Of a stretch of 60,600 nucleotides of DNA, positions 3,735 through 25,367 are shown one piece after another. Each line of letters opens with the position of its first letter. The stretch's first letter is position 1. Both the position numbers and the translations under genes were made by a program. The notes beneath the pieces were generated by a model. The model was given only the letters and a program-made list of their open reading frames with translations. It searched no databases and was not told where the DNA came from. Origin of the DNA: a virus. The stretch covers positions 1-60,600 of the IMG/VR virus record IMGVR_UViG_3300036791_000464; one strand, given 5' to 3'.

Positions 3735-3875
3735 TTAGCACCTACACTTCCATATCGCTCGTAGACAACCTTTGCATCGAATAGTGTAACCATCTTCATC
3801 GTAGTTGCCGAGATACGTCGCCCATTTGCCGCATTTGCAGCGAGGCATTACGACAAGAGCAGGATGTTCAGCCAT
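3735..3875 (-). CDS. Small zinc-ribbon protein
   Basis: A 46-residue protein with two CxC/CxxC pairs (CKCGKW and CKGCLRAIWKCRC) that would bind one zinc ion. The start at 3875 is chosen for the GTTAGGAGTAAGG site just upstream. Its stop codon directly abuts the polymerase start codon, so the two are probably translationally coupled. Function unknown. Confidence 0.7.
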   Translation of the reverse strand: MAEHPALVVMPRCKCGKWATYLGNYDEDGYTIRCKGCLRAIWKCRC

Positions 3876-4032
3876 CCTTACTCCTAACGTCTCCGTGAAT
3901 GGCGAGCCAGATATCGAGCCACCCATCCACATCGTCTTCTGTTTTCGGTACCTTTGGAGGATCGCCATACTTCTCCACGAGGTACGCTTCAATCGCTTCG
4001 GATAGAAGCACTGTTTTACTAGGATCATCCAC
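3868..4032 (-). CDS. Small acidic hypothetical protein
   Basis: A 54-residue frame starting at GTG, reading VDDPSKTVLLSEAIEAYLVE and ending near HGDVRSKDG. The amphipathic helical sequence looks like a real protein. It overlaps its neighbours by 8 bp on each side, which suits this tightly packed operon. No ATG is available in this frame, so the call rests on the GTG start and protein-like composition. Confidence 0.55.
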   Translation of the reverse strand: MDDPSKTVLLSEAIEAYLVEKYGDPPKVPKTEDDVDGWLDIWLAIHGDVRSKDG

Positions 4033-4318
4033 GCATGCCTCTCTCGATCTGCTTGATCAGGAACGCCGCATAGTTGATGACGTCGAGCGCGTCTTCCACT
4101 ATCGCCATCATCCAGACACTATCGTCTTTCGCCCGTCCCTCTTCGTTGATTGTGTATGCGTTCTCGATACGGGTGACCCGCTCGCGTAGCTCGCGGATCT
4201 TGTCAGACGGCGGGAACTCCAACCACATCTGTCCGCGAACATGCGACTTGTCGATAAAGATCTGATTCGCTCTGTCGAGTATCTTCCGGTGCTCGGCTTC
4301 GAAGTTAGGCGATGGCAT
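4025..4318 (-). CDS. MazG/DUF1599-like small protein
   Basis: A 97-residue mostly helical protein. The C-terminal stretch SVWMMAIVEDALDVINYAAF resembles the conserved E-D-L-D-x-x-N/A-Y helix of DUF1599/MazG-like all-alpha proteins, which bind or hydrolyse nucleotides. That is family resemblance by eye, not a proven match. The start at 4318 avoids most of the overlap with the upstream phosphatase gene. Its position beside a HAD phosphatase and close to replication genes supports a nucleotide-metabolism role. Confidence 0.5.
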   Translation of the reverse strand: MPSPNFEAEHRKILDRANQIFIDKSHVRGQMWLEFPPSDKIRELRERVTRIENAYTINEEGRAKDDSVWMMAIVEDALDVINYAAFLIKQIERGMRG

Positions 4319-4955
4319 ACGACTCTTTCCATCCTTCAATCATGTCTCCGATCCTTGTGGTGATCGTCCACATCTCGCTACGCCTCCCGCGGACGGCCAC
4401 GTTCCAAGCCGTACCCATAAGGATGGAGACGTTCCGCCCGACGAGACGATCTGCCTCATCACACATCTCCGGGAGATCATCGATGATCGCGACGATCCTG
4501 TCCTCATCTACCCGGTCGAGCAACTTGGCGTACTTGTCTTCATCAAACAGCATGCCGTCGTACTCGGCCATTCCGTGACGGCGCAGCCATTCGACCGTAT
4601 CCGGGATGACGGTATCGAGCGACAGATACGGGCGCGTCGTCGTGAGCCAAAGCTCGGCGTCACAAGCGATGATCTCGTTGAGGAGATCAGCAGCGCCGTC
4701 GAATACCGGCATGCTGCGCTTCATCCCGCCCTGCCGGTACGCGAGCTTGATGGCGCGGTACTCGTCCGTCTCGATCCCGTTCGCCGTCTTGAACCAGAGC
4801 CGGAAGCTATGCCCTCCGGTGTAGTTGCGTTGTAGCTCGCGACCGACGTACTGCTCGGTAAAGTCAATGAAGTGACCGTGGTAGTCGCCAAGCGTCCCGT
4901 CGATATCTACGGCGACAACCGGACGAATGATCTCGCTACACTTGCTGCAAAGCAC
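4305..4955 (-). CDS. HAD-superfamily phosphatase / 5'-nucleotidase-like
   Basis: A 216-residue protein with the HAD motif I VVAVDIDGTLGD, where the two Asp residues are the nucleophile and acid/base. Motif II is near ELWLTTTRP and motif III/IV near DRIVAIIDDLPEMCD. Phage relatives dephosphorylate deoxynucleoside monophosphates, but the substrate cannot be read here. The GTG at 4955 is preferred because GAGGAGG lies six bases upstream. This start places it inside the 3' end of the flavoprotein gene (20-bp overlap). The N-terminus carries a CSKC pair that may bind metal. Confidence 0.8.
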   Translation of the reverse strand: MLCSKCSEIIRPVVAVDIDGTLGDYHGHFIDFTEQYVGRELQRNYTGGHSFRLWFKTANGIETDEYRAIKLAYRQGGMKRSMPVFDGAADLLNEIIACDAELWLTTTRPYLSLDTVIPDTVEWLRRHGMAEYDGMLFDEDKYAKLLDRVDEDRIVAIIDDLPEMCDEADRLVGRNVSILMGTAWNVAVRGRRSEMWTITTRIGDMIEGWKESYAIA

Positions 4956-5715
4956 TTCTGACCTCCTCGTATCCGTGGTGGGTGAAAGCGTGTCTGTCCC
5001 ATTTCCCGAAGCGACCGATGCGGACGACATTCGGGTGACAGGTACAGGTTGTTCGTAGCGGCTTGATGCCCTTGCTGACTCTGACCCCTTCCGCTAAGAC
5101 GCTTGTGCTGATATTCGTGGGTGCGTGATCCTCGGAGAACTCCCATGATTGGTACCCTCGGATTCGTGAGTAGCGATACCAAGCTGGCATCCCGACCAGA
5201 TCGACTCCGTTGTAAACCATAATGTTTTCTTCCACGGTGGTCGGCCCGTGTAGGACGACGATGTTGACGGCGTCGAACCGATGTTGCCAATCGAGGCAGA
5301 TCGAGCGCGCCGGGATCGCGCTGAAGACCATATCTGCCTTGATACCCTCGACGCTCTCAGGTGTTACCTGTACATCGACTATGAGTTTATTGTACTGTCG
5401 CCATAGCTTGGAGTAGGCCGACTTGAGATCCCATCCCGGCGTCGGCCCGATGGTGAACTTGTCCCAGCTGACTTCTGCGTTCGGATCCCCGTATACGCTT
5501 TCAGCATATCCCCAGCGTGTCCCGACCTTGTTGACGTCTATCATCATCTCGGGATTATCCGGGCTGATGTCCGGAATCGGTGCATGTAGATACATCGCGC
5601 CAAACGTGATGCTACGGCGCTTCCGAGAGTAGATGACGACATCATGTCCGACCGTCGCAGCCGAGTGTGCCGCGATTAGACCTGCAGGCCCACAACCAAG
5701 GATGGCTACCTTCAT
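4936..5715 (-). CDS. FAD/NAD(P)-binding oxidoreductase-like flavoprotein
   Basis: A 259-residue protein beginning with a classic Rossmann dinucleotide-binding fingerprint, MKVAILGCGPAGLIAAHSA, followed by an acidic/basic strand end near VVIYSRKR. A C-terminal CTCHP and a conserved-looking WDRHAFTHHGYEE tail follow. The enzyme would bind FAD or NAD(P), but the reaction is unknown. ATG at 5715 overlaps the preceding stop as ATGA. Flavin oxidoreductases are uncommon in phage genomes and sometimes take part in thymine hypermodification. No kinase or other partner of that pathway is visible here, so this role is only a possibility. Confidence 0.7.
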   Translation of the reverse strand: MKVAILGCGPAGLIAAHSAATVGHDVVIYSRKRRSITFGAMYLHAPIPDISPDNPEMMIDVNKVGTRWGYAESVYGDPNAEVSWDKFTIGPTPGWDLKSAYSKLWRQYNKLIVDVQVTPESVEGIKADMVFSAIPARSICLDWQHRFDAVNIVVLHGPTTVEENIMVYNGVDLVGMPAWYRYSRIRGYQSWEFSEDHAPTNISTSVLAEGVRVSKGIKPLRTTCTCHPNVVRIGRFGKWDRHAFTHHGYEEVRSALQQV

Positions 5716-8807: not shown

Positions 8808-9815
8808 TCAGAACGGCTCTGCTACTTTGTCGTCTTCTCGCAGGGCCGCGACCAGCTTGTCCTTCGTCTTGCGGCCGGTGATCTTGATGTCGGCGTCCTG
8901 CTCGTTGCGAGTGGCGATCTCGTCGGTCAACTCCTCCAACGTCCACTCTTCGTAGTCGTCGCCCTCGCCCTCATCGTCGCCGCTGGTCTCTCCCGCACCA
9001 TCCTGGACGGCTGCGACCGACTCCGCGAGCGAGACGATGGCCTCGATGTACTTGGCCTTGGTCTTGCGGCCGGTGACGTTGCCCGTGATGCCGAGATCCT
9101 CGACATATGATTTGATGTCGTCGTCCGCCCAGTCTGCGTAGAACTTCGCATCTGCGCGGAGATCGGCCACCAGCTCAGGATCGAGGTAGCCCGCGCCGTT
9201 GGACGCGGCTTCGTCTCCCTCGCCTGGCTCATCGGCCATGCCCTGGTCTTCCATGATCGCGGCGATAGCCTTGTCCTTGCTGAAGCGCCCTGACAACTCG
9301 ATCCCGCGATCTTTGATCTCTTCTTTGAGATCGTCGTTCGACCACTCGGCCAGTTCCTCGGCCGTGAACGGCTCATCATCGCCGCCGCCCTCGGGCAGAC
9401 CCTCGCCATCCTCCTCGACCTTGCCAGGAGCATACAGGCTCTTGACCCGACCGCGATACTCACCTTCCAGGTTGGTGTCAGCGACGACCTTGACGTTGAC
9501 GTTCTTACCGACCTGCTTGGCGGTATCGAACTGGCCCTTGGCCGGTAGCTTCAGAGCATCGGTAAGCTCGCGCAGCTTCCAACCGTGAGCGGTCTCGTTG
9601 TAGTTCGGATCGTTCGGCGTCTTGACGTACGTCCAAAGACGCGCGTACTCCGAGCCGACATCGATGATGATCTCCAGATCGCCCACGACTTCGCCGTTTG
9701 CCTTCTTATCGCGCGGCGTGATCGAGGCAATCTTGCCTTGATAGAGGCCAGGCTGCGGTTGTTCCCCGCCGCCGCCTGATTCGACGTTGCTGACGTCGTA
9801 CTTGACTACTGCCAT
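8808..9815 (-). CDS. DNA-binding protein with three SAP/HeH-like repeats
   Basis: A 335-residue acidic protein. The N-terminal 130 residues (GLYQGKIASITPRDKKANGE, LWTYVKTPNDP) resemble the single-strand-binding-like proteins that phages encode next to Sak4 ATPases. Three helix-extended-loop-helix repeats follow, each ending in GR.(S/T)K.K: around ELSGRFSKDKAIAAI, VTGRKTKAKYIEAI and ITGRKTKDKLVAAL. They are separated by acidic low-complexity linkers. Such motifs bind DNA. Its stop lies 11 bp before the primase-MCM start, and its ATG overlaps the stop of the Sak4-like ATPase. It likely coats or organises replication intermediates. Confidence 0.72.
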   Translation of the reverse strand: MAVVKYDVSNVESGGGGEQPQPGLYQGKIASITPRDKKANGEVVGDLEIIIDVGSEYARLWTYVKTPNDPNYNETAHGWKLRELTDALKLPAKGQFDTAKQVGKNVNVKVVADTNLEGEYRGRVKSLYAPGKVEEDGEGLPEGGGDDEPFTAEELAEWSNDDLKEEIKDRGIELSGRFSKDKAIAAIMEDQGMADEPGEGDEAASNGAGYLDPELVADLRADAKFYADWADDDIKSYVEDLGITGNVTGRKTKAKYIEAIVSLAESVAAVQDGAGETSGDDEGEGDDYEEWTLEELTDEIATRNEQDADIKITGRKTKDKLVAALREDDKVAEPF

Positions 9816-10642
9816 TAGTTACGCTCCCTCCTTCTTGTTCTTCTTCTCGTTGTTCGTCCATTTGAAGGCCGACCAGCTTGAATCGCCTCCATCATCTCGG
9901 GAATGCTCGGGTTGATTATGTCGCCCGTCCCGAAGACTGAGCCACCGTCTGGCGTTTTTATTTGGCACTTAGCATACCAACTTTCGTTCGCGTTGGTGTG
10001 TAAGACTCTGACCTGTCGCTTCCGGCCACCGCGACCCTCGCGCTCCTCTATGGATCCATAGGCAACGATGTTCATCATACCCGCGATCTTCGCCGGCATC
10101 ATTTTCCCCTGGATCCAAGGCCACAGACATGACGGAGTTACACCATTATCGTATGGCTCCCACCAAAAAGCGTGAGCGGTGACACCAAGGTTTACAGTTC
10201 CTGCCCCGACGATATGTCGAACGTATTGACCGAGTCGCCAAAAGTTGACGCGGTACTCGCCGCGATCCGGGCCAAACTGTTCTCTGTCCTTCCGCGCGAG
10301 CGATCCTACTGGCCCCTTGCGGTCAAGTACGTTCTCATATACGTCATCAAGACCGATGTCTTGGAGCAGAGAGATGCTGTCAATCCACACCCAGTCCCAT
10401 TCGCCCTCGGGAAGATGTTGAACGTATTCAAGCGTCTCGAAAATCTCCTCCCAGTCTGAGACAATGATTTCCTGACAACCGGAGCCGATGATGGGGTCGA
10501 CATGATCGATGGGCGGTCGAACAATGAGCGTCTTGAACTCCTTGCCACCCGTTCCGATCAGGCTTGTTTTACCCCAGCCTATGTCTGCGTAGATCAGCAT
10601 AGAGAGCTTACTGCTTGCGCCTACGGGCTTGATATTCGGCAT
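9815..10642 (-). CDS. RecA-like ATPase, Sak4-type recombinase
   Basis: A 275-residue P-loop ATPase with Walker A YADIGWGKTSL, Walker B WDWVWIDSISLL and a basic tail (RTTRRRTRRRERN). Length and layout match the Sak4/AAA_24 single-strand annealing proteins of phages. These work with an SSB and a nuclease, both present as immediate neighbours. The ATG at 10642 is chosen because AGGAGA precedes it. The upstream in-frame codons would run into the HNH gene. Confidence 0.82.
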   Translation of the reverse strand: MPNIKPVGASSKLSMLIYADIGWGKTSLIGTGGKEFKTLIVRPPIDHVDPIIGSGCQEIIVSDWEEIFETLEYVQHLPEGEWDWVWIDSISLLQDIGLDDVYENVLDRKGPVGSLARKDREQFGPDRGEYRVNFWRLGQYVRHIVGAGTVNLGVTAHAFWWEPYDNGVTPSCLWPWIQGKMMPAKIAGMMNIVAYGSIEEREGRGGRKRQVRVLHTNANESWYAKCQIKTPDGGSVFGTGDIINPSIPEMMEAIQAGRPSNGRTTRRRTRRRERN

Positions 10643-14934: not shown

Positions 14935-15214
14935 TACTTTTGCTTCTCTTTCTGCCTCTGTAGATTGCGTAGACCTCACATCCTCGCGAGACGAACTCCC
15001 AGTCATGTTCTGGTTCTGGGATGAGCACCTGGCGACGATGCAAGTTGGACTGGAGCTTATACGCCTGTGCTGGATTCTCACAAGTGTAGATCAGCGCCCA
15101 GTTACCAGGATTGCCAACGAGTGGCATGAGCTGGTTGGCCCATCGCCCCACCAATCCTTGTTTCGGTCTCGGTGGCTCGTTGACGAACTCTACTTTTTGT
15201 TCTGTGTCGTTCAT
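14897..15214 (-). CDS. Hypothetical protein
   Basis: A 105-residue protein with a basic tail (RGRKRSKSNETARRSTNRRR). The middle (NWALIYTCENPAQAYKLQSN, then WEFVSRGCEVYAIYRG) reads like a small alpha/beta fold. The start is set by AAGGAGGGTACTA just upstream. It leads into the SNF2 gene with an overlap, so the two are co-translated. Confidence 0.75.
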   Translation of the reverse strand: MNDTEQKVEFVNEPPRPKQGLVGRWANQLMPLVGNPGNWALIYTCENPAQAYKLQSNLHRRQVLIPEPEHDWEFVSRGCEVYAIYRGRKRSKSNETARRSTNRRR

Positions 15215-15241
15215 TAGTACCCTCCTTATCTTGACGGCCAA

Positions 15242-15281
15242 AAGCACGCTCGGAGTTGAACCGAGAATACCCATCGTGCTT
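15242..15281 (-). other. tRNA-like minihelix in an intergenic leader
   Basis: On the minus strand AAGCACG pairs with CGTGCTT (7 bp). This encloses a 5-bp stem CTCGG/CCGAG with the seven-base loop TTCAACT. That is exactly acceptor-stem and T-arm geometry, including a TTCRA loop. A nine-base ATGGGTATT replaces the D and anticodon arms. It is not a functional tRNA. It occupies the position of the second hairpin in the intergenic elements upstream of other GGTACC-type start sites. Confidence 0.5.
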
Positions 15282-15290
15282 GGAAGATTC

Positions 15291-15329
15291 GGGGGATCCG
15301 GGGAGGGTACCAGTCCACCCGGATCCCCC
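15291..15329 (-). other. Perfect 12-bp stem-loop
   Basis: GGGGGATCCGGG pairs with CCCGGATCCCCC around 15 bases. With the minihelix at 15242-15281 it forms a two-hairpin leader before the gene starting at 15214. The rest of the gap to 15410 holds a further short inverted repeat near 15370-15390 and a TATCGACTAACGG word that recurs at 26620. Confidence 0.7.
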
Positions 15330-15410
15330 ACGCCGGCAGCGCGTTATCGACTAACGGCGCGCGCCAGCGAGCTTTGTAGGAGCTTGCGTAATGGGATGCA
15401 AGCCTCTATC

Positions 15411-15671
15411 CTAGCCGATCTCCTTCCGCGCCGGTACTCGACCAGTGCGGAAGCAATAGGGACAGCTTCGTCCGACAATCACAATCGGTTTGATCTGCTG
15501 CTGCTTTTGAACTCTGAATGGTCTCATCCATTCTCTCTCTGCGACCAAAAACGGACGGTCACCTGTCGTTCCTGGACAGTCTTTGTAGCCGCATCGGACG
15601 ATCAAGAAGCCGGGAAAGTCTTGGCTCCTGGTCGCCTGGTACCGAGGCAGCTTGCTTACGAAGTCGTTCAA
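15411..15671 (-). CDS. Small zinc-binding protein
   Basis: An 86-residue protein with two cysteine pairs, VRCGYKDCPG and CPYC, spaced about 40 residues apart, enough for one zinc site. A TTG start at 15671 is inferred because AAGGAGGGTACC lies directly upstream and no ATG is available. The CxxxCPG pair resembles that of the protein at 52200-52451. Function unknown. Confidence 0.65.
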   Translation of the reverse strand: MNDFVSKLPRYQATRSQDFPGFLIVRCGYKDCPGTTGDRPFLVAEREWMRPFRVQKQQQIKPIVIVGRSCPYCFRTGRVPARKEIG

Positions 15672-15740
15672 GGTACCCTCCTTGGTTTGAAGCCCGGTAT
15701 GGACTCCGACCGCCCAGACGCTACTCTGGACGGCCGCAGT

Positions 15741-15992
15741 TCATCTGCCGGTACGTCTTGGATCGTTCAGACGGATGTCAGCGGCGGCCAACGTTCTGTA
15801 CCCGCCTGGGTCTGTGTACACCTGAACAAGAGACTTCTGACGACGCAGGATGTAACCGTTCTTGTCGAACGTACCTGCGGGTAGAAGTTGCTTGAAGGAG
15901 ACACATATGAATGGCCCGATCACAAATGGTTCGAGACCTTCCATCTTGACGACAACCCAGATCCGGCGACCAGGGCGCAGCATGTCTTCCAC
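15741..15992 (-). CDS. Hypothetical beta-rich protein
   Basis: An 83-residue frame from GTG at 15992 (VEDMLRPGRRIWVVVKMEGL). The frame stays open and protein-like up to a CTG at 16037 that overlaps the upstream TGA as CTGA. A CTG start giving 98 residues is therefore possible. Alternating hydrophobic strands (VIGPFICVSFKQLL) suggest an OB- or SH3-like fold. Unrecognised. Confidence 0.6.
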   Translation of the reverse strand: MEDMLRPGRRIWVVVKMEGLEPFVIGPFICVSFKQLLPAGTFDKNGYILRRQKSLVQVYTDPGGYRTLAAADIRLNDPRRTGR

Positions 15993-16534: not shown

Positions 16535-16575
16535 AATGCTCCCTCCTATTACGGTTGATGGTACCCAGTACGCCG

Positions 16576-16604
16576 ATTATAGCGCATGGGGTGGTACCCG
16601 TCTA
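16576..16604 (-). promoter_or_regulatory. Sigma70-like promoter (TAGACG-17-TATAAT)
   Basis: Minus strand -35 TAGACG, exactly 17 bases, then a consensus -10 TATAAT. It fires toward the HTH/AT-hook gene 42 bp downstream. It shares the -35 with two other promoters in this genome. Confidence 0.75.
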
Positions 16605-17930: not shown

Positions 17931-17946
17931 GGTACCCTCCTTGACT

Positions 17947-18000
17947 GTGCTCGGTTATCCGAACACGAGGCCACCCGTCATTACACGGGTGACTTCCTGC
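17947..18000 (-). ncRNA. Two-hairpin intergenic RNA element (member a)
   Basis: It begins right after the stop at 18001. P1 is GAAGUC-ACCCGU paired with ACGGGU-GGCCUC around GUAAUG, with one A-C opposition. P2 is GUGUUCGG-AUAA-CCGAGCAC, 8 bp. The Shine-Dalgarno AAGGAGGGUACC follows. There is no U-run, so it is not a plain terminator. Confidence 0.7.
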
Positions 18001-18225
18001 TCAGTTGACCGGATCGACCTCAAGAATCTCGCGGTCGTCAGACCAATCGACATCCGTACCGTCGAAGTCTTCGAACTCCGCAGCATCTTTGGCGTCGTCT
18101 TCGTCTTCGGCATAGATGTAGATCGTGACTATGCCAGTGACCTGCATCTTGACTTTGTACTCTTGCTCGTCAGGCACGTTAGTCCCTTCCGAAGCCAAGA
18201 GGCAGATCCGCGCCCTCAGCTTCAT
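18001..18225 (-). CDS. Small acidic hypothetical protein
   Basis: A 74-residue protein with a beta-strand core (YKVKMQVTGIVTIYIYAED) and a strongly acidic C-terminal half (EDEDDAKDAAEFEDFDGTD). ATG at 18225 is preceded by GAGAGAGC. It could be a DNA mimic on charge alone, but nothing else supports this. Confidence 0.65.
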   Translation of the reverse strand: MKLRARICLLASEGTNVPDEQEYKVKMQVTGIVTIYIYAEDEDDAKDAAEFEDFDGTDVDWSDDREILEVDPVN

Positions 18226-18276
18226 CGATTGCTCTCTCAGTGTCGCCCCCAAGGAGCCGTTGCTGCTACGCCGACA

Positions 18277-19242
18277 CTACTTGTTCAGCGACTTGCCACT
18301 GCTTCTTACACCCTTGCTCGGATTGACGCTGATGTTCGCTTTGGCGCCAGCCGAGCTTCCGGCCGTCCTGGCTCCCATGTCGATCTTCCGACTTGCGCGA
18401 ACAACCGTTCCGCCGCGAGTTGCTCCTGAGATCGGGAACTCTGCGTACATGAACTCGCGGTTGATCTTGACCTGATCACGCAGAGCGATCTCCAGACCGG
18501 AGCCAACCGACTTCACTGACTCGTTCCTCATAGCGTGCAACCGCTGTCCAACTTCGGCTGCGAATCCTGCCGAGAAGTTGCGCCTGAACGTCTTCCAGTG
18601 ATTGTAGTTCTGCGGGACACCGCGCACCTTGCACTCCTTGCGATAGTACCGCAGCATCGAGTCGCGAGCTTTCGTGCGCTCCATGTCTGTGTTGAACCCA
18701 GCGGCCTGCATCGCCTCGCCGGTCTCATCCCAGCCGATGCCAGCCTCGCGGAACAGCACGAGGTTATCGAACATCGACTTGAGTGGATCGGCTTTCGGAT
18801 GCGTAGACTCGACCAACTGAGTCATCAGCGACGAGAACAGCAGAGTCATGTAGCCGAGGTCAGCTTCGGTTCCAATAACCGGAACCTTACAGCTTTCCCA
18901 TGTTCTACGAGTATGACTGTAGTGCTGCTTGTGGATGACGATGACGCAGTTCGCGTGCCGAGCCACATCTAGGAACAGAGACCAAAGTGCGTCGCTGATC
19001 TCCGGGAATGGCCCGGACTCAAACGCGAAGCTGTAGTCGAAGTCGTGGATGATTGGCGTCCGCCCGTCAATACGACCGGCATCGTGCTGCGCCAACTCCC
19101 AAAGCTCGACATTGTACTTCATCATCAACTCGTCGGCCTTGGCCATGAAGACTGCGCGCTCACCTTCGAACTCGGTGCTCTCAGCCTTGGCCAAGAGTCC
19201 CTGGATCTTGGAGAGCAGGTCGTCTTTCTGGATCGTGCTCAT
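18277..19242 (-). CDS. DUF2786 protein
   Basis: A 321-residue protein. The N-terminal helices KIQGLLAKAESTEFEGERAV and AKADELMMKYNVE are the DUF2786 signature found in many actinobacterial and phage proteins. A middle alpha/beta region and a basic Ser/Lys tail follow. Molecular function is not established for the family. The start follows AAGGAGGGTACCAG. Downstream, AGUGUCG/CGACACU brackets the 50-bp gap to the next gene. Confidence 0.78.
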   Translation of the reverse strand: MSTIQKDDLLSKIQGLLAKAESTEFEGERAVFMAKADELMMKYNVELWELAQHDAGRIDGRTPIIHDFDYSFAFESGPFPEISDALWSLFLDVARHANCVIVIHKQHYSHTRRTWESCKVPVIGTEADLGYMTLLFSSLMTQLVESTHPKADPLKSMFDNLVLFREAGIGWDETGEAMQAAGFNTDMERTKARDSMLRYYRKECKVRGVPQNYNHWKTFRRNFSAGFAAEVGQRLHAMRNESVKSVGSGLEIALRDQVKINREFMYAEFPISGATRGGTVVRASRKIDMGARTAGSSAGAKANISVNPSKGVRSSGKSLNK

Positions 19243-19264
19243 CTGGTACCCTCCTTTTGGGGTA

Positions 19265-19316
19265 AGACACTATGTACCATACATAATGTCTGGGCCACCC
19301 GGTGGTGTTCCGGGTG
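19265..19316 (-). ncRNA. Diverged two-hairpin intergenic RNA element
   Basis: AGACAUUAUGUA-UGG-UACAUAGUGUCU is a 12-bp stem, fully paired on the minus strand with one G-U; the plus strand would have a C-A mismatch. CACCCGG/CCGGGUG is the second stem. It sits between the stop of the 19326 gene and the GGTACC start site of the DUF2786 gene. Confidence 0.6.
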
Positions 19317-19325
19317 ACCGAGGCA

Positions 19326-19556
19326 TTACACCTGGCCAAGCTCCCAGATCGTCACAGGATTGTGACAGGCAGGAGCATTGTGATACGACATCAGATCCAT
19401 GCCTTCCCAGATCAGTCCGTAGGCGATGCCGCCGTTGAACTGATTGTTATACTGGACGATCTTCACGCACCGCATCGAGTGCGGATTGCCCGGCTCATCC
19501 CAGCCGTCATCTGCAATAACTTGATCGACGACCTCGCGACTATTGACGGTAGTCAT
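19326..19556 (-). CDS. Hypothetical protein
   Basis: A 76-residue protein (MTTVNSREVVDQVIADDGWD at the start; MRCVKIVQYNNQFNGGIAYG in the middle). The start overlaps the preceding stop as TAATG, so the four genes 19326-20261 form a coupled chain. No family recognised. Confidence 0.7.
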   Translation of the reverse strand: MTTVNSREVVDQVIADDGWDEPGNPHSMRCVKIVQYNNQFNGGIAYGLIWEGMDLMSYHNAPACHNPVTIWELGQV

Positions 19557-19807
19557 TACGTCCTCTCGTTCAGGATACCATTTTCGATCAGAAATGTCTT
19601 GTAGATCGGGAAGACGTTATTGTATGTCTTCTTCCCAATCTCGACATTGTGTTTCTTCAGGATCACGACAGCCTGCTTCAGCGGTGACAACCGCCAGCGT
19701 GGGCCATCCGGGTGCTCGACTATCATCTTCATCTTGAAGTAGACCTGAAGATAGACGAACGCTCTGATCTCATGAGGCTGGTCGAGGATGAACCCTTCGC
19801 CACTCAT
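19556..19807 (-). CDS. Hypothetical basic protein
   Basis: An 83-residue Lys-rich protein (LKQAVVILKKHNVEIGKKTY near the middle), helical, possibly nucleic-acid binding by charge only. ATGA overlap with the preceding gene. Confidence 0.65.
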   Translation of the reverse strand: MSGEGFILDQPHEIRAFVYLQVYFKMKMIVEHPDGPRWRLSPLKQAVVILKKHNVEIGKKTYNNVFPIYKTFLIENGILNERT

Positions 19808-20046
19808 GACTCATACTCCTGTAGTTTGACGACGAGTGCATCGTGCTTCTCGGCTAGGTACAGCAGAGCCGAGCGTACATCTTGCAACGCTCCAAGGATG
19901 ATCTCAGCCTCGTCCCAGTTCAGACTTGAGCTAGGACTCTCGGCCATATCCGAGATCGAGCCGATCACGCCATCAAGGTTATTGATGTCGCTTACGACCG
20001 ACGCAGGAATGTTCCGGATGGTGAACTCTTCATCCTCTCCATTCAT
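19804..20046 (-). CDS. Hypothetical coiled-coil protein
   Basis: An 80-residue acidic protein with a C-terminal heptad-like helix (ALQDVRSALLYLAEKHDALV). It overlaps both neighbours by four bases. Function unknown. Confidence 0.68.
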   Translation of the reverse strand: MNGEDEEFTIRNIPASVVSDINNLDGVIGSISDMAESPSSSLNWDEAEIILGALQDVRSALLYLAEKHDALVVKLQEYES

Positions 20047-20261
20047 GTGCTCATCGCTCCGTGCTCGTCGATCCCACCGATGATAGGATTGCCAGTCGTG
20101 TACTTGATCTGTACGGACATATAACCTTCCGGCAGACCAAGACCGCCTCTCTGGACGATGATCTCCTCGACCGAATGACCCTCAGACAGATCGACAAGCT
20201 TACGCGCTTGCGCCATCGTAAGGTGGTCGAGTGCTTGTGGCGTCATTTTGATGACGACCAT
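20043..20261 (-). CDS. Hypothetical protein
   Basis: A 72-residue protein starting MVVIKMTPQALDHLTMAQAR. The ATG at 20261 sits directly after AAGGAGGGTACCGT, which rules out longer frames. Helical N-terminus, beta C-terminus (YMSVQIKYTTGNPIIGG). Unrecognised. Confidence 0.72.
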   Translation of the reverse strand: MVVIKMTPQALDHLTMAQARKLVDLSEGHSVEEIIVQRGGLGLPEGYMSVQIKYTTGNPIIGGIDEHGAMST

Positions 20262-20283
20262 ACGGTACCCTCCTTTTGGTTTA

Positions 20284-20330
20284 GAGCCTACACCACGCAG
20301 ACTCCGACCGTCTCTCCATGAGAGACGGCC
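20284..20330 (-). ncRNA. Diverged two-hairpin intergenic RNA element
   Basis: GCCGUCUCUC-AUG-GAGAGACGG is a 9-bp stem extended by a G-U pair. GAGUCU/AGGCUC is a 6-bp stem with a U-G pair. Both are better paired on the minus strand, consistent with an RNA read leftward. Confidence 0.6.
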
Positions 20331-20335
20331 GCAAC

Positions 20336-20464
20336 CTAGTTGGTGTCCTTCTTCCATGCTCGGTCGCTTGCGCGCTTCTGGGAACGCCTGGCGGCTTTCT
20401 CAGCCTTGCGCATAGACGACTTGAGGTTGCCTGAGCCATGCAGGATGAACTTACCGCGCTTCAT
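20336..20464 (-). CDS. Small highly basic protein
   Basis: A 42-residue protein, MKRGKFILHGSGNLKSSMRK then a run of Lys/Arg/Ala. Its ATG overlaps the stop of the next gene up as ATGA, and its stop is followed by the 20284-20330 hairpins. The charge suggests DNA or RNA binding. It is too short to classify. Confidence 0.65.
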   Translation of the reverse strand: MKRGKFILHGSGNLKSSMRKAEKAARRSQKRASDRAWKKDTN

Positions 20465-20886
20465 CGAAGCGGCTCGCATTCAGGGCAGAACTCACGATGG
20501 GCATCGTCGTGCAGCCCTTGCATGTGAGCATCCGCCATGTCTGCGATCTCGTCGTCCATGTTTCTTGCACTTGGGACGATCTCTGTTGAGCCGAAGTGGT
20601 GCTCATAGCTGCCGGCTTGGGCATGAATGAACACACCAGGCTTCCAGCCCATCCGCTCGCACTTTCGCTTCATTGCTGCGACACTGTCATCGAACTGCTC
20701 GACGGTGCCACCGACCATGACGAATCCGACGTACTTGTCGCCGTTTCCCCAAGTGTCTGTGATGCCGAACGTCGAGGCCATCGGCCTCTTGGCGATCCTC
20801 ATCTTCCAGGGTTTCCGAGCTTCGCTGCTGATGCAGGCGACAACCTCGGTATCCGGATTGGGATCGATTTGAACGCGGTTACTCAT
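20461..20886 (-). CDS. Hypothetical protein
   Basis: A 141-residue protein starting MSNRVQIDPNPDTEVVACIS at 20886, directly after AAGGAGGGTACCC. It ends in CPECEPLR, half of a possible metal site. A beta-rich centre (STFGITDTWGNGDKYVGFVM) is followed by helices. No family recognised. Confidence 0.75.
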   Translation of the reverse strand: MSNRVQIDPNPDTEVVACISSEARKPWKMRIAKRPMASTFGITDTWGNGDKYVGFVMVGGTVEQFDDSVAAMKRKCERMGWKPGVFIHAQAGSYEHHFGSTEIVPSARNMDDEIADMADAHMQGLHDDAHREFCPECEPLR

Positions 20887-20907
20887 TGGGTACCCTCCTT
20901 TCGTACA

Positions 20908-20958
20908 TGTTCGGATCACCCGAACACGAGGCCCCACCCAGTGGATGGGACTTCCTGC
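20908..20958 (-). ncRNA. Two-hairpin intergenic RNA element (member b)
   Basis: P1: GAAGUC-CCAUCC paired with GGGUGG-GGCCUC. P2: UGUUCGG/CCGAACA around GUGAU. It begins at the stop of the 20959 gene and ends at the GGUACC ribosome site of the 20886 gene. Confidence 0.7.
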
Positions 20959-21204
20959 TCAGCTGATGACCTTGCTGTTGTTGGAGAGAGCGATATTGAA
21001 GAGCGGAACGAACTTGTACTTTTCCACCGGGCTGGCGACGATCCAGACCATCTTCTTCTTGGTGCTGGTGCCGTCCTTATGGTGGATTTGGCTCATCTTC
21101 TCTTGCTTCTCAAGCTTGAGCTGGACGCCATCGATCTCGATGGTCTTCTTGCCGGCCAACCAGGCTGAGCGGATCAACTCAACTGAAGACTTATCAGTCG
21201 CCAT
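20959..21204 (-). CDS. Hypothetical protein
   Basis: An 81-residue Lys-rich protein (MATDKSSVELIRSAWLAGKK). The central strand EIDGVQLKLEKQEKM suggests a small beta domain. The start overlaps the preceding stop as TGATG. Unrecognised. Confidence 0.7.
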   Translation of the reverse strand: MATDKSSVELIRSAWLAGKKTIEIDGVQLKLEKQEKMSQIHHKDGTSTKKKMVWIVASPVEKYKFVPLFNIALSNNSKVIS

Positions 21205-21812
21205 CAGTCAACCTTCTTCGACCAATTGCTGTTGTCGTCGTTCTCGGGCTCATACTTGTGGAGCATCGCTTCGATCTCTGCGACTACTCCCTCATGGAAC
21301 GCGGTCTCATAGACATCGAGCAGATGCGGCTCGCCATCGTCGCCGTAGCGGTCGAGTTCTTCCATGCAGACTTGTTCCCAAGTGGGATCGTCTGCCCATT
21401 CGCCGCTGACTCGCGGCATCGGAAGCATGTCCATGATCTCAGGATCGATGTTCTCCATACCTTCCATGATTCTCTTGAGGAACTCGTACGGATTGTCCGT
21501 ATTCCCATCGACCATCCAGGTTGCGGCGTTTTTGCCGTCCTGCTCACCGCGCTCGGCGATGATCGCGTCGTCTTTGTCCTCGGACGTGTCTGCGATCCTG
21601 CCTGACAACTCTTCGTGATGCTGATGGTACGCAAAGAGGAGATGCTGGTGAAGAATCGAGATGTCCGAGATGCTGGCGAAGTGCAAGAAGTTCTGTACAG
21701 CAACGCCAACTTCCTTCGATGAGACAATAAAGCTGCCGGCATCGTGGTCGATTGCGTGAACAACTCGGCCATCATCCATGACTTCTTCGCTGTAGATTGC
21801 GAAGACCTTCAT
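21204..21812 (-). CDS. Hypothetical acidic protein
   Basis: A 202-residue acidic protein (MKVFAIYSEEVMDDGRVVHA at the start). The start is set by AAAGGAGGGTACCA. It ends in helices rich in Glu and Asp. No motif of a known enzyme is visible. It is coupled to the 20959 gene downstream. Confidence 0.75.
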   Translation of the reverse strand: MKVFAIYSEEVMDDGRVVHAIDHDAGSFIVSSKEVGVAVQNFLHFASISDISILHQHLLFAYHQHHEELSGRIADTSEDKDDAIIAERGEQDGKNAATWMVDGNTDNPYEFLKRIMEGMENIDPEIMDMLPMPRVSGEWADDPTWEQVCMEELDRYGDDGEPHLLDVYETAFHEGVVAEIEAMLHKYEPENDDNSNWSKKVD

Positions 21813-21834
21813 TGGTACCCTCCTTTGTTCGGCC

Positions 21835-21899
21835 GTGCTTGGCTTATCCGAGCACGAGGCCCAGCGCGCGATGCTTTGCGTGCTGGACTTCCTACTCAG
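21835..21899 (-). ncRNA. Two-hairpin intergenic RNA element (member c)
   Basis: P1: GAAGUC-CAGC with GCUG-GGCCUC, carrying an inner GCGC-type loop. P2: GUGCU-C-GG/CC-A-AGCAC around AUAAG. It lies between the stop at 21900 and the start site of the 21812 gene. Confidence 0.68.
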
Positions 21900-22538
21900 C
21901 TAGTCCGCGTCGAACTTAGTAATGTAGAGTTGCTTCTTGATTCCGAAGAACTCCATCATCTCTGCCGGAGCGCGCTTGGCGTACAGTTGGCGCTTCGTCC
22001 AGATTGTATAGCCGGTGCCGAAGCCGGACGGCATGAAGTTGTACGGCTGTCCGCTCAGCAACGTCTTGCTCACCTTTGTTCTTGTCTCTGGCGTTACCGA
22101 GAACGGAATGCCCGGAACAGAAGTTGAGACAGCGATGCGCTTCAGTGACTCTGGAATCCGCTCCGTGATGTAGCGGTGGATCGCTTCGTTGGCTTCGTCA
22201 CTTGGACTCACGTACGGCTTCGGTGTGAACTTCAACGGATTGCTGATGTAGAAGCTGTCATCGACGCCGTAGCGGTCGTATGAGCGACGGATCTTGTCCG
22301 GGGCCATGAAGCTAACATGACCATCGGCCAAGAAGTAGTCGTTGCGATCACCGGAGAAGTTGATCTCGATAATCGTCCAAGGAGCTTTCATCTGGGTGAG
22401 GTACAAGCTTTTGAACTTCTTCTTTGTCCAATCGTTGACCTCTTCCCTGACTTCACTTACAAAGCCCTTTGGAACCACGATTTCACGGATCAACGTATCC
22501 GGCTTCGGAACAACCGGCTTGATGTTCTTAGCCGTCAT
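21900..22538 (-). CDS. Hypothetical protein
   Basis: A 212-residue alpha/beta protein starting MTAKNIKPVVPKPDTLIREI at 22538, where ATG overlaps the preceding TGA. Aromatic-rich strands (TIIEINFSGDRNDYFLADGH) and a C-terminal basic region are visible. No family recognised. Confidence 0.72.
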   Translation of the reverse strand: MTAKNIKPVVPKPDTLIREIVVPKGFVSEVREEVNDWTKKKFKSLYLTQMKAPWTIIEINFSGDRNDYFLADGHVSFMAPDKIRRSYDRYGVDDSFYISNPLKFTPKPYVSPSDEANEAIHRYITERIPESLKRIAVSTSVPGIPFSVTPETRTKVSKTLLSGQPYNFMPSGFGTGYTIWTKRQLYAKRAPAEMMEFFGIKKQLYITKFDAD

Positions 22539-22768
22539 TCCGTCACCTGGTCGGCCGTGACCCAGAGTTGACCTTTGCCGACGCCGAGCGTTGTGTACTG
22601 CCGGTAGCCGCGCCAATGTCGCGCGCAGCCATTCGCCCACGGGCCCATACTCGTTTTGAAGTCGTACGGGCCAGGAACGAACTCGTCATCTTCCATCTGG
22701 CAGAAGTTGCAGTTGGGAATGCGATCGACAAGAATGACCTGATGGGGGATGAGCTTGAGCTTAGTCAT
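22535..22768 (-). CDS. Small zinc-binding-like protein
   Basis: A 77-residue protein with CNFCQMEDDEF and a later CARHW, a plausible CCCH/CHC metal site. It starts two bases after the preceding stop. A short treble-clef or zinc-ribbon fold is possible. Function unknown. Confidence 0.65.
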   Translation of the reverse strand: MTKLKLIPHQVILVDRIPNCNFCQMEDDEFVPGPYDFKTSMGPWANGCARHWRGYRQYTTLGVGKGQLWVTADQVTE

Positions 22769-22769
22769 G

Positions 22770-23060
22770 CTAGTCCACCACCCATCCGTCATCGAGAAGA
22801 GCATCGACGTTGTCGTACGTCTTCAGCTTGCCACCACCAGGCAGTTCGCCAAAGATCGTCGAGTTGCTCTGGATGGTCAACTCTGCGTTCTCATCGATCA
22901 TCTGCATCCCAGCCGCTAGCACTGCCGTCTCGATGCCTACGTCTTGCGACTTAGCGCGACGCTTGATCGGGAGCAGCAGATGCGGCCACCTGTATGGATC
23001 GAGGATCATCTCACGATGCTCCTCGCGTGTATGACCTGTCCAATCCTTTGGACTCGTCAT
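22770..23060 (-). CDS. Hypothetical protein
   Basis: A 96-residue protein starting MTSPKDWTGHTREEHREMIL at 23060, after AAGGAGGGTACCAAA. Helical N-terminal half; the second half contains LTIQSNSTIFGELPGGGKLK. Unrecognised. Confidence 0.72.
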   Translation of the reverse strand: MTSPKDWTGHTREEHREMILDPYRWPHLLLPIKRRAKSQDVGIETAVLAAGMQMIDENAELTIQSNSTIFGELPGGGKLKTYDNVDALLDDGWVVD

Positions 23061-23104
23061 TTTGGTACCCTCCTTTTGGTTTTGTACTAGGATCTCCTTT
23101 TGGA

Positions 23105-23152
23105 CTGATGTCCGGCATGGGACAGTGATGTTCTGTCCCTGCCGCGCATCAG
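23105..23152 (-). ncRNA. Nested stem-loop, diverged intergenic element
   Basis: CUGAUG/CAUCAG encloses GGCA/UGCC, which encloses GGACAG/CUGUCC, with small asymmetric internal loops. The outer stem includes the stop of the 23149 gene. A second AAAAGGAG site lies downstream before the true GGUACC start site. Confidence 0.6.
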
Positions 23153-23454
23153 TGTGACAAGAAGAACAAGATTGCGTCGATGACCTCGCGCGCTTCACCG
23201 ATGTTGTCGCTGTTGATGATCGCCATCCTGGGATTGCTTTTGCCATCCAAGATCGGCTTGTCCCAGTTGAAGACGTTGTGGTTCCGCTGGAAGTGGAACT
23301 CCATCGTCAGTTGAGATGTGTATGGCGTTGACTCTTGCTCGATGAAGTGGATAACGCCGCAGTTGCTGGCGCTCCATTCCGCGACCAACTCGTAATCCAA
23401 GCTGTTGGCGGATGACTCCAGATCCTCTATGAACTTCTGCTGGAATGTTTTCAT
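23149..23454 (-). CDS. Hypothetical protein
   Basis: A 101-residue alpha/beta protein (MKTFQQKFIEDLESSANSLD; later MEFHFQRNHNVFNWDKPILD). The start follows AAGGAGGGTACCCA. No motif recognised. Confidence 0.72.
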   Translation of the reverse strand: MKTFQQKFIEDLESSANSLDYELVAEWSASNCGVIHFIEQESTPYTSQLTMEFHFQRNHNVFNWDKPILDGKSNPRMAIINSDNIGEAREVIDAILFFLSH

Positions 23455-23483
23455 TGGGTACCCTCCTTGTTTTCATGCACCAT

Positions 23484-23551
23484 GTACCCAAGCTTATCTC
23501 GGGCACAAGGCCGCTCGCCGTGTTGCTTGTTGGTGAGCGACCTTCTGCTCG
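23484..23551 (-). ncRNA. Two-hairpin intergenic RNA element (member d)
   Basis: P1 is a perfect 10-bp AAGGUCGCUC/GAGCGGCCUU, where the A-C opposition of other members becomes a normal pair. P2 is a 9-bp stem GUGCCCGAG/CUUGGGUAC with wobbles around AUAAG. The base changes preserve pairing relative to members a-c, which is the clearest covariation in the set. Confidence 0.72.
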
Positions 23552-23644
23552 CTACGCCTGCTTGGCGGCTTGGAGCATCGCAACACCGAGCGAACCAAGG
23601 TTGCTCGTTGTGCGGATCTTGACCACGATCTTCTTCTTGGTCAT
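23552..23644 (-). CDS. Thirty-residue small protein
   Basis: MTKKKIVVKIRTTSNLGSLG followed by VAMLQAAKQA and a stop. The ATG is preceded by AAGGAGGGTACCGC, identical in form to its neighbours, and the frame is flanked by RNA elements d and e exactly as the larger genes are. The basic first strand and helical tail give no family. Confidence 0.65.
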   Translation of the reverse strand: MTKKKIVVKIRTTSNLGSLGVAMLQAAKQA

Positions 23645-23674
23645 TGCGGTACCCTCCTTGGGGTTTGTTCTATG

Positions 23675-23732
23675 CGTACTCGGTTGAGCACGAGACCGCA
23701 TCCCGTGTTGCTGGTGGGATGCGATTTCCTAC
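23675..23732 (-). ncRNA. Two-hairpin intergenic RNA element (member e)
   Basis: P1: GAAAUC-GCAUCCC with GGGAUGC-GGUCUC; the A-U pair here replaces G-C of other members. P2: CGUGCUC-AACC-GAGUACG, 7 bp. It lies between the stop at 23733 and the 30-residue gene. Confidence 0.72.
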
Positions 23733-24302
23733 TCAGTTGCCTGTTTGTTCCTTTGATTCGCGCAGAATGACGATTCCCTTCTGCCTTGCTGCGTGGCGCT
23801 CGTTGGCGAACTCGTCGTTGATGAACGCCAACTTCTCCCAGACGTTGACGACACTACCCTCTAGTGCCTTGAGGGCATTGGCGACGACGCAAGCGAGGTA
23901 CAACTTGTTCTCCAACTCGATGGCGATGCCGGCTGCGTCCGCGATGGCGTCGTCCAAAGTCTTGTTCTCTGGCTTGGGGTCGAAGCGCAGCGTCTCCTTG
24001 TTGTAGCCAAGTTGAGCATTCCATTCCTTGGCCACTTCGGGGTAGTCGCCATCCTCTTCGTAGATCCCATCGGACTCGCCGCCCCAATCCATTCCGAGGT
24101 CAGCAGCGACCCACATAGCCGCGACGAGTGGGATGTTCTTGTAGCCGTAGGCCGTTGGGAACCATCCCATCTCTTCGTTGAACCGCTCGGTCTCTTCCTT
24201 GGTTTTGACCTCGCGGCCATCGCCAATGAACTCGACCTTGGACAATGTGTCCAAGCAGCGGTTGACGAAGGACATCGCTTCGCTATTGAAGTCGTATCTC
24301 AT
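23733..24302 (-). CDS. Hypothetical helical protein
   Basis: A 189-residue protein starting MRYDFNSEAMSFVNRCLDTL at 24302, directly after AAGGAGGGTACCGAA. A longer reading exists but would cross RNA element f. It is mostly helical with Glu/Lys-rich segments. Residues 85-110 (GIYEEDGDYPEVAKEW) are acidic. No family recognised. Confidence 0.75.
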   Translation of the reverse strand: MRYDFNSEAMSFVNRCLDTLSKVEFIGDGREVKTKEETERFNEEMGWFPTAYGYKNIPLVAAMWVAADLGMDWGGESDGIYEEDGDYPEVAKEWNAQLGYNKETLRFDPKPENKTLDDAIADAAGIAIELENKLYLACVVANALKALEGSVVNVWEKLAFINDEFANERHAARQKGIVILRESKEQTGN

Positions 24303-24336
24303 TTCGGTACCCTCCTTTGGGTTTTGCTTTTGTTTC

Positions 24337-24395
24337 CGTACCGATTGGCACGAGGCCATCGAGCGTAATGCTTTTTGCTCGATGACTTCCTACCA
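24337..24395 (-). ncRNA. Two-hairpin intergenic RNA element (member f)
   Basis: P1: GAAGUC-AUCGAGC with GCUCGAU-GGCCUC. P2: CGUGCC-AAUC-GGUACG, 6 bp. It lies between the stop at 24396 and the start site of the 24302 gene. Confidence 0.7.
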
Positions 24396-24572
24396 TCAGC
24401 GGCGGATTGTGAATCCGATGATCGTCGCGAACACAATCGGGATTGTGGAAACAATCGCGATTGCTGACTGATTGACTGTTGCGCTCGCTGCTGCGTTGAG
24501 CATGATGAGCGCGAGTCCGATGAGCGCGAGTCCGATGAGGACGAGCCCGATGCTTCTCGTTTGGGCGGTCAT
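24396..24572 (-). CDS. Small membrane protein with repeated LIGLA
   Basis: A 58-residue protein. Residues 8-26 contain a tandem IGLVLIGLALIGLALIML helix and residues 38-54 a second hydrophobic stretch (IAIVSTIPIVFATIIGF), giving two likely membrane helices. ATG overlaps the stop of the next gene up as ATGA. It could be a holin-like or membrane-remodelling peptide. Its place among early genes argues against lysis. Confidence 0.68.
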   Translation of the reverse strand: MTAQTRSIGLVLIGLALIGLALIMLNAAASATVNQSAIAIVSTIPIVFATIIGFTIRR

Positions 24573-24862: not shown

Positions 24863-24886
24863 GGGTTGGTACCCTCCTTGTGGTTT

Positions 24887-24933
24887 GGTCGGGGTATCCG
24901 ACCGGCGCGGGATGCGCTACTCGCTCACATCCC
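24887..24933 (-). ncRNA. Diverged two-hairpin intergenic element
   Basis: GGUCGG/CCGACC (6 bp, loop AUACC) and GGGAUG/CAUCCC. The latter overlaps the stop of the 24917 gene. Same position relative to the GGUACC start site as members a-f. Confidence 0.5.
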
Positions 24934-25231
24934 CGCCGCTCGAAAGCCGTCCATGTTCCGAACACTTCTTGCCGGTTATCGCCGTTCTCGGACATCTGTT
25001 GCCTCCCTTGATAATCGTTACAAGGTAGGACGTGTTGTCCTTCCGCTTCTTGCGGAATGTGATCTTCTTGCCGTTCGAGATGTGGTCGCATTGGCGAAGC
25101 GGGAAGGTGTTTGGTGATTTTGCCTTCCGCCCAAGTCCGCGCGTCTCAAACTCGGATAGTCCCGAGTTGCGGAAATGGTTTCTTGCCATTTCCTTGTTTC
25201 GACGACGTTGTTCTCTCGTCTTATGATCCAT
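24917..25231 (-). CDS. Basic hypothetical protein
   Basis: A 104-residue very basic protein (MDHKTREQRRRNKEMARNHF) with three cysteines (RQCDH, NRCPRT, KKCSEH) that could bind metal together with His. Its ribosome site is AAGGGAAGGGAAAC rather than the GGTACC type. It is the first gene downstream of the structured leader at 25270-25322. Probably nucleic-acid binding (inference from charge). Confidence 0.68.
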   Translation of the reverse strand: MDHKTREQRRRNKEMARNHFRNSGLSEFETRGLGRKAKSPNTFPLRQCDHISNGKKITFRKKRKDNTSYLVTIIKGGNRCPRTAITGKKCSEHGRLSSGGDVSE

Positions 25232-25322: not shown

Positions 25323-25367
25323 ACGGGGTTTGTCTTCCCCGCCGCCCCGCCGTAAGGAGGGGGTACC

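Follow-up and report, generated by a model that had tools for sequence, protein, structure and literature searches.

A shared extended Shine-Dalgarno sequence, its complement in a hairpin loop and alternative folds at gene junctions suggest RNA control of a phage early gene block

The 60.6-kb virus genome analyzed here, the whole of IMG/VR virus record IMGVR_UViG_3300036791_000464 (60,600 nucleotides, referred to as the window), contains a leftward block of early genes which share a lineage-specific extended Shine-Dalgarno sequence (SD), denoted the start-associated sequence (SAS). The complement of the SAS is found in the loop of a single hairpin (anti-SAS hairpin) located between the block of early genes and the replication genes, and the junctions between the SAS-bearing genes carry RNA elements with 2 mutually exclusive folds, one of which engages the stop codon of the upstream gene. 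We favor, as on balance the probable explanation, RNA control of the early gene block by these 3 components, i.e., the SAS tag, the anti-SAS RNA and the junction switch. A preliminary description of the same DNA, made from the sequence alone, recognized the two-hairpin elements at the junctions, but overlooked both their alternative pairing and the anti-SAS hairpin. Yet, the single hairpin loop elsewhere in the genome that is complementary to the conserved AAGGAGGGUACC is the strongest functional clue.

The start-associated sequence and its complement in the lineage of the window

The exact SAS, AAGGAGGGTACC, is present in 11 copies, each of which lies on the minus strand, directly before a start codon. 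These copies are restricted to the leftward block between 15.67 and 24.88 kb, nearly all of them behind a two-hairpin element linked to a stop codon, and 1 variant copy, AAGGAGGGTACT, lies at 15216. When up to 2 mismatches were allowed, 21 matches were found in the window, compared to 2.8 ± 1.7 expected from shuffles. The extended SD of the tagged genes, AAGGAGGGUACC, is specific to the lineage. The exact copies are as follows:

15672..15683, minus strand: SAS AAGGAGGGTACC, preceding a leftward gene that has the start codon TTG at ~15671
17931..17942, minus strand: SAS AAGGAGGGTACC
19245..19256, minus strand: SAS
20264..20275, minus strand: SAS
20889..20900, minus strand: SAS
21814..21825, minus strand: SAS
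23064..23075, minus strand: SAS
23457..23468, minus strand: SAS
23648..23659, minus strand: SAS
24306..24317, minus strand: SAS
24868..24879, minus strand: SAS

The complement of this sequence resides in the following feature:

15291..15329, minus strand: anti-SAS hairpin with a 12-bp stem and the loop UGGACUGGUACCCUC(C)

Within this hairpin, positions 15302-15311 read GGUACCCUCC, which is exactly complementary to GGAGGGUACC. The lineage to which the window belongs (S1) has GGAGGGTACC as its SAS; in the window and in 9 loci of relatives, the coding strand contains exactly 1 copy of the reverse complement, GGTACCCTCC, which is always located in the hairpin loop. The stems differ in sequence between the S1 loci but remain paired (96 of 96 cells, including 24 double changes, over 12 bp in 8 gap-free loci), whereas the loop word is invariant; the stem of one further locus, L053, is imperfect. 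The G-U pairs in the S1 stems agree with a leftward RNA. The predicted energy of the anti-SAS:SAS duplex is −19.5 kcal/mol, compared to −11.2 kcal/mol for the duplex of the 16S rRNA tail with the SAS.

Confinement of a single complementary copy to the loop of a covarying hairpin is what an RNA–RNA interaction predicts, whereas a DNA-binding protein needs no hairpin. This bears on the alternative in which the SAS is an operator or stoperator for a DNA-binding repressor, with the hairpin copy being a lone site in the opposite orientation. Such a role would fit the palindromic GGTACC, which also occurs beside TATAAT-like boxes at ~16560-16593, 25362 and 25858, and asymmetric sites in a single orientation are reminiscent of Cluster A stoperators (PMC3203893). 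However, in every case the site is also a Shine-Dalgarno sequence and the conservation spans the SD core, the only inverted copy always sits in the loop of a covarying stem, and the SAS of other lineages, such as CCAGGGAGG and AAAGGAGCC, are not palindromic. We therefore regard the operator explanation as improbable.

The vicinity of the anti-SAS hairpin contains 2 further candidate features:

15242..15281, minus strand: truncated tRNA-like minihelix, with a 7-bp acceptor-like stem and a 5-bp T-arm with the loop UUCAACU, and no D or anticodon arm
15408..15413, minus strand: TAGGAT, a weak candidate for a −10 box before the anti-SAS RNA

The minihelix is conserved behind the anti-SAS hairpin in 6 S1 phages. 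We considered and rejected the presence of a complete tRNA at 15.2 kb, as ARAGORN identified none in the window or its relatives, including L051. Minihelices consisting of an acceptor stem and a T-arm are model substrates of RNase P (PMC11143913), which makes release of the anti-SAS RNA by RNase P a plausible guess, and the minihelix is possibly an RNase P/Z processing signal. The region 15150-15500 yielded no known RNA family at an Rfam E-value of ≤5.

Tag and loop pairs across lineages and the genomic context

Each of the related lineages has its own SAS, and most have exactly 1 reverse complement, located in the loop of a strong hairpin. The loop tracks the SAS through at least 6 changes, while the stem covaries freely. 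The SAS/loop pairs are as follows:

L077 and L078 (lineage S2): GGAGGGTACA/TGTACCCTCC
L056 (lineage S3): GGAGGGTCA/TGACCCTCC
L057, L063, L064, L068 and L090: CCAGGGAGG/CCTCCCTGG
L059 and L062: CAGGGAGGT/ACCTCCCTG
L117 and L119: CAGGGAGGA/TCCTCCCTG
L120 and L121: ACAGGGAG/CTCCCTGT
L071, examined after the hypothesis was formed: AAAGGAGCC/GGCTCCTTT, 12-13 bp stem
L100, examined after the hypothesis was formed: AGGAGCTAC/GTAGCTCCT, 12-13 bp stem
L115, examined after the hypothesis was formed: SAS/loop pair with a 12-13 bp stem

The last 3 loci were chosen for having a reverse complement; thus, the independent test that they provide is limited to whether this complement lies in a hairpin loop. Swapping the SAS and loops between lineages gives a diagonal table, except for a core common to the S4 group. 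The chance expectation for a given word is 0.006-0.14 occurrences per locus, and no more than 0.07-0.6% of the positions can fall within a loop closed by a stem with a score of ≥11. The SAS set, the anti-SAS loop and the covariation of the loop with the SAS can all be read directly from the sequences, as can the three-segment pairing described below.

The anti-SAS hairpin could instead act purely in cis, by pairing with the SD of the gene directly downstream. Indeed, a full SAS precedes the next gene in S2 (L077, L078) and S3 (L056), and in S1 this gene often has GGAGGGTACT, which matches 9 of the 10 bases of the SAS. However, the SD of the gene directly behind the S1 hairpin deviates from the SAS (GGTACT, GGTACA, GGGGTAG, GAGTGGGGT or GAGGAGGT), while the loop remains GGTACCCTCC, which fits the distant genes, and the next gene in S4 lacks the SAS. 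A role restricted to cis thus appears distinctly unlikely.

Several observations weigh against the favored explanation. L122, for which the whole record was searched, and L072/L073 have a clear SAS, but no anti-SAS hairpin was found in them; neither was an anti-SAS detected in the examined DNA of L138, L091 and L074. The last loop base in S4a/S4t is an imperfect match to the SAS. The anti-SAS hairpin of S2 and S3 belongs to a junction element located directly before a SAS-bearing gene, where it could act solely in cis, and, because the lineages are related, the tests are not fully independent. In S1, no consensus promoter or terminator bounds a small RNA, and a sigma-70 consensus promoter was not found. 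Finally, the connection between the junction switch and the antisense RNA is one that we infer.

Searches of more distant, cultured relatives (Wentworth, Mopey, Cruella, Pleakley and Gibbin) did not yield a convincing pair of SAS and anti-SAS; a 9-mer that Pleakley carries in a weaker hairpin of 9 bp was judged to be a chance occurrence. The S3 phages L056 (~9800-9980, just upstream of the helicase gene) and L072 contain a long structured RNA, CACGAGGCGGG..CCCGCCTCGTG, which is not obviously an anti-SAS.

The leftward genes are located at 0.3-25 kb of the window; among them are genes for a DnaE-type polymerase, a primase/helicase, a Sak4-like protein, an exonuclease and a helicase, whereas the rightward terminase, portal, capsid and tail genes are found at 30-56 kb. 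Compared with their counterparts in cultured phages, mostly phages of actinobacteria, the terminase, primase, helicase and polymerase show no more than ~47% identity. No relatives of the window, and no copy of the whole element, were retrieved by blastn from the cultured-phage collection, and the protein encoded at 18277-19242 gave no match when used as a query. Searches with the element pattern and with the helicase uncovered similar junction elements in related IMG/VR loci; the whole element, or its strict pattern, was absent from ~85,000 bacterial and archaeal species, each represented by 1 genome. Three hexamers, GAATTC, GAGCTC and CCTAGG, are missing from the entire window (11-18 copies expected), and GGATCC and GGTACC occur at about twice the expectation, possibly owing to restriction avoidance. 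The GGTACC copies neighboring TATAAT-like boxes, of which that at 25362 reads TATAATGGTACCCCCTCCTTA on the minus strand, are possibly an operator or promoter motif. Another motif, CCCTGGTAA, is located upstream of a promoter-like region at ~16613 (minus strand) of the window and in the distantly related phages L059, L117 and L120 (S4 loci).

Mutually exclusive folds at the gene junctions

Each junction element comprises 3 segments. Segment A consists of the first ~6 bases, including the stop codon (UGAGCA), and segment B (for example, UGUUCA) can pair either with A, producing a single long hairpin around hairpin 1 (state 1), or with segment C, producing hairpin 2 (state 2). Folding of the stop-to-SD stretch of every element showed that the 2 folds are mutually exclusive and almost equal in energy. 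The elements of the window are as follows:

15684..15743, minus strand: junction element of the GCGGCC..GGTCGGAG type, between the stop TGA at 15741-15743 and the SAS
17943..18003, minus strand: type I element; A is UGAGCA at 17998-18003 (stop codon included), hairpin 1 spans 17970-17993, B 17960-17965 and hairpin 2 (B:C) 17947-17966
19257..19328, minus strand: element of the UAAUG:CAUUA type
20276..20338, minus strand: element of the GCGGCC..GGUCGGAG type
20901..20961, minus strand: type I element
21826..21902, minus strand: type I element, with the stop UAG immediately preceding A
23076..23151, minus strand: element of the UGAUG:CAUCA type
23469..23554, minus strand: type I variant (AAGGUC/GGCCUU)
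23660..23735, minus strand: type I element
24318..24398, minus strand: type I element (GGUA:UGCC)
24880..24950, minus strand: diverged element, the hairpin 1 of which overlaps the terminal part of the gene upstream, which has its stop UAG at 24917-24919

The single minus-strand plan that had been proposed for 6 of these gaps is present in 6 of 6, the diverged copies noted at 19265, 20284, 23105 and 24887 are real, and 1 further copy was found at 15672-15743. The plan had been described as a stop codon followed almost directly by the box GAG(C/U)AGGAAGUC. The order of stop codon and box holds as a plan, although in members c and d the upstream stop TAG lies a few nucleotides before the box; the box itself applies to the type I members, whereas the others have unrelated boxes in the same architecture. 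The boxes of the different types are wholly different, but the design is constant.

The A:B pairing is supported by permutation tests. Across 55 elements from 9 S1 phages, the mean gain from A:B pairing is −8.7 kcal/mol, compared to −4.4 ± 0.35 kcal/mol when A is permuted among the elements (minimum of 100 permutations, −5.3). The mean B:C gain in this set is −9.7 kcal/mol and the difference in energy between the states ranges from about −6 to +8. The 2 pairings compete for the same bases: A pairs with 367 bases of B, 293 of which also pair with C. At least 2 bases of the stop codon are paired in 42 of 54 elements. The permutation test was also positive in lineages S2, S3, S4 and S4b, i.e., in 5 lineages when S1 is included.

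Both folds are further supported by covariation among 20 type I elements from the window and its relatives, which we measured by counting pairs against shuffled and slid controls, in place of a covariance model. For state 1, 98.7% of the cells are paired (78.9% in shuffled controls) and 54 cells are changed on both sides (14.5 shuffled); for state 2, 94.6% of the cells are paired and 63 are double-changed (18.7 shuffled). Sliding the pairing partners abolishes both signals. The B columns covary with both A and C: for example, where B has A in place of G, the A and C segments each have U. The earlier proposal of a covarying, leftward structured RNA is therefore well founded. Consistent with the claim that the elements are not ordinary terminators, no minus-strand terminator-like site (a GC hairpin followed by a U-run) was detected among the junctions.

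Sequestration of the SD as the output of the switch was considered and rejected: SD exposure is 0.57 and 0.60 in the 2 states and, consequently, the switch does not act by hiding the SD. The same similarity would suit elements that serve as insulators, keeping the SD free with or without a ribosome at the stop codon and regulating nothing, as would the fact that B is paired in either fold. However, insulation leaves the anti-SAS loop unexplained and has no need for near-equal energies or for pairing of the stop codon, and we consider it unlikely.

The nearly constant SD exposure also makes mRNA processing or decay at the junction the likely output of the switch. The best hint in this direction is comparative and comes from hammerhead-like cores in 2 other phages. 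In the relative L138 (positions 904-5700; IMGVR_UViG_3300015371_000033), 11 such cores are found at successive junctions, most starting at or near the stop codon, which is often included in stem I, and several are followed by a shared SD, CCAGAAAGGA; the corresponding Rfam hammerhead matches are below the gathering score (E-values of 0.002-7). Streptomyces phage Wentworth (MH019216; L186:8081-14305) has at least 5 type II (permuted) hammerhead-like sequences, also scoring below the Rfam gathering threshold, directly before CCCCAAGGAGG or similar SDs, CCCCAAGGAGG being a shared extended SD present in ~13 copies. These cores suggest that processing or decay may be what the junction switch controls.

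Carried further, this evidence leads to an alternative in which the junctions are first of all processing sites: when the upstream gene is not translated, the A:B hairpin would be cut, for instance by RNase III, separating or destroying the cistrons, and the anti-SAS would be secondary. The A:B fold has ~15 or more pairs, a length compatible with RNase III cleavage. The cores of L138 are found at the equivalent position and have the stop codon in stem I, and those of Wentworth precede a shared SD; furthermore, cleavage of transcripts into gene-length mRNAs has been proposed for prophage hammerheads (PMC3088659). The junctions of the window resemble those hammerheads in position, and the stem closing the L138 ribozymes likewise contains the stop codon. 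However, the window elements lack a catalytic core: fewer than 2 matches to the hammerhead core (CUGANGA..GAAA..NUH) were present in the window, none was visible in the elements, no Rfam match was obtained, and the hammerhead matches in the other phages are below the gathering scores. Processing as the primary role is thus rather doubtful, although the mRNA processing suggested in the preliminary description stays alive as a possible role through L138. Decay protection between cistrons, likewise suggested there, may also be a role. The binding site for a phage protein, also proposed there, gained no support from anything found.

A proposed mechanism and its relation to known systems

Under the favored RNA control, the SAS would be a regulon tag, the same lineage-specific extended SD standing before each early gene. 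The anti-SAS loop would pair, chiefly in trans, with the SAS on the early mRNAs, outcompete the 16S rRNA tail and block 30S binding or initiation, and the early gene set would be turned down together, for example, as the downstream replication genes come on. We infer that the hairpin RNA would be expressed, act by pairing and repress rather than activate. At the junctions, a ribosome arriving at the upstream stop codon would flip the switch: it must open A:B, freeing B for C, whereupon B:C would form, whereas in the absence of translation the long hairpin would persist. The junction would thereby report translation of the upstream gene.

The closest precedent for the SAS is found in Cluster K mycobacteriophages, in which a 13-nt extended SD, GGGATAGGAGCCC, referred to as SAS and associated with an extended start-associated sequence (ESAS), is located a few nucleotides before the starts of 11-19 non-structural genes, in one orientation and often with an inverted repeat upstream (PMC3203893). 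The function of the Cluster K SAS/ESAS is still unverified (PMC3203893, PMC12699233). Similarly, the window has a shared extended SD in a single orientation (11 copies, minus strand), only before non-structural genes (15.6-24.9 kb). However, its SAS is AAGGAGGGTACC, not GGGATAGGAGCCC, and its elements covary as RNA, whereas RNA pairing is not supported for the 17-bp imperfect inverted repeats of the ESAS (PMC3203893). The K1 phages carry 1 unexplained SAS copy in the opposite orientation (PMC3203893), and we found this copy, CTCCTATCC, in a hairpin loop within a conserved intergenic stretch of Anaya, CrimD, Yunkel11, Validus and LilPharaoh. The idea that Cluster K phages generally have an anti-SAS was rejected, as subclusters K2, K3, K5 and K6 and several other phages keep the SAS and lack the loop; the K1 loop is therefore a lead rather than proof. 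The stretch in question is:

~59.74-59.92 kb of Mycobacterium phage Anaya: intergenic stretch with the CUCCUAUCC loop

This stretch (L106:29740-29920) and its homologues match 174 mycobacteriophage records, mostly without annotation, and contain an TTTTAGACT box and a strong GC hairpin, to which K1 phages add the anti-SAS loop; some records annotate a small open reading frame there.

The anti-SAS loop is comparable to c4 of P1/P7, a phage antisense RNA with its complementary stretch in a loop and aimed at a ribosome-binding region (PMC12197685), the precursor of which is an RNase P substrate (PMC11143913). In both cases, the loop is complementary to a ribosome-binding site of the same phage, and the truncated tRNA-like helix behind the anti-SAS hairpin is suggestive, and only that, of RNase P processing. 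However, c4 addresses 1 operon, whereas the anti-SAS loop matches ~10 genes through their shared SD, and no Rfam C4 match was obtained, either in the window at the gathering score, which no Rfam family reached, or in 15150-15500 at an E-value of ≤5. The system works like a c4 aimed at a regulon and resembles the Cluster K SAS, but is a member of neither. In ribosome-controlled attenuation and in translational coupling by RNA unfolding, a ribosome on upstream codons picks between exclusive hairpins (PMC12548453). The proposed junction switch likewise relies on mutually exclusive hairpins between which a ribosome would decide, but differs in its sensor, the stop codon within segment A, in the lack of a terminator and in leaving the SD unhidden in both states.

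More tentatively, the window could exemplify a phage-wide RNA operating system composed of a lineage-specific SAS regulon, a single co-evolving trans-silencing anti-SD RNA and a stop-codon-gated switch at each junction, recurring with different sequences in many phages. If this is true, such a system would provide phages with a general, RNA-only means to tag and co-control a set of genes, and would predict a regulator for the repeated start-associated sequences, the function of which has been open since 2011. Because the SAS/anti-SAS code varies by lineage, the pairs should be orthogonal. The bistable junction gated by a stop codon would, in turn, represent a new class of elements reporting the translation of each cistron.

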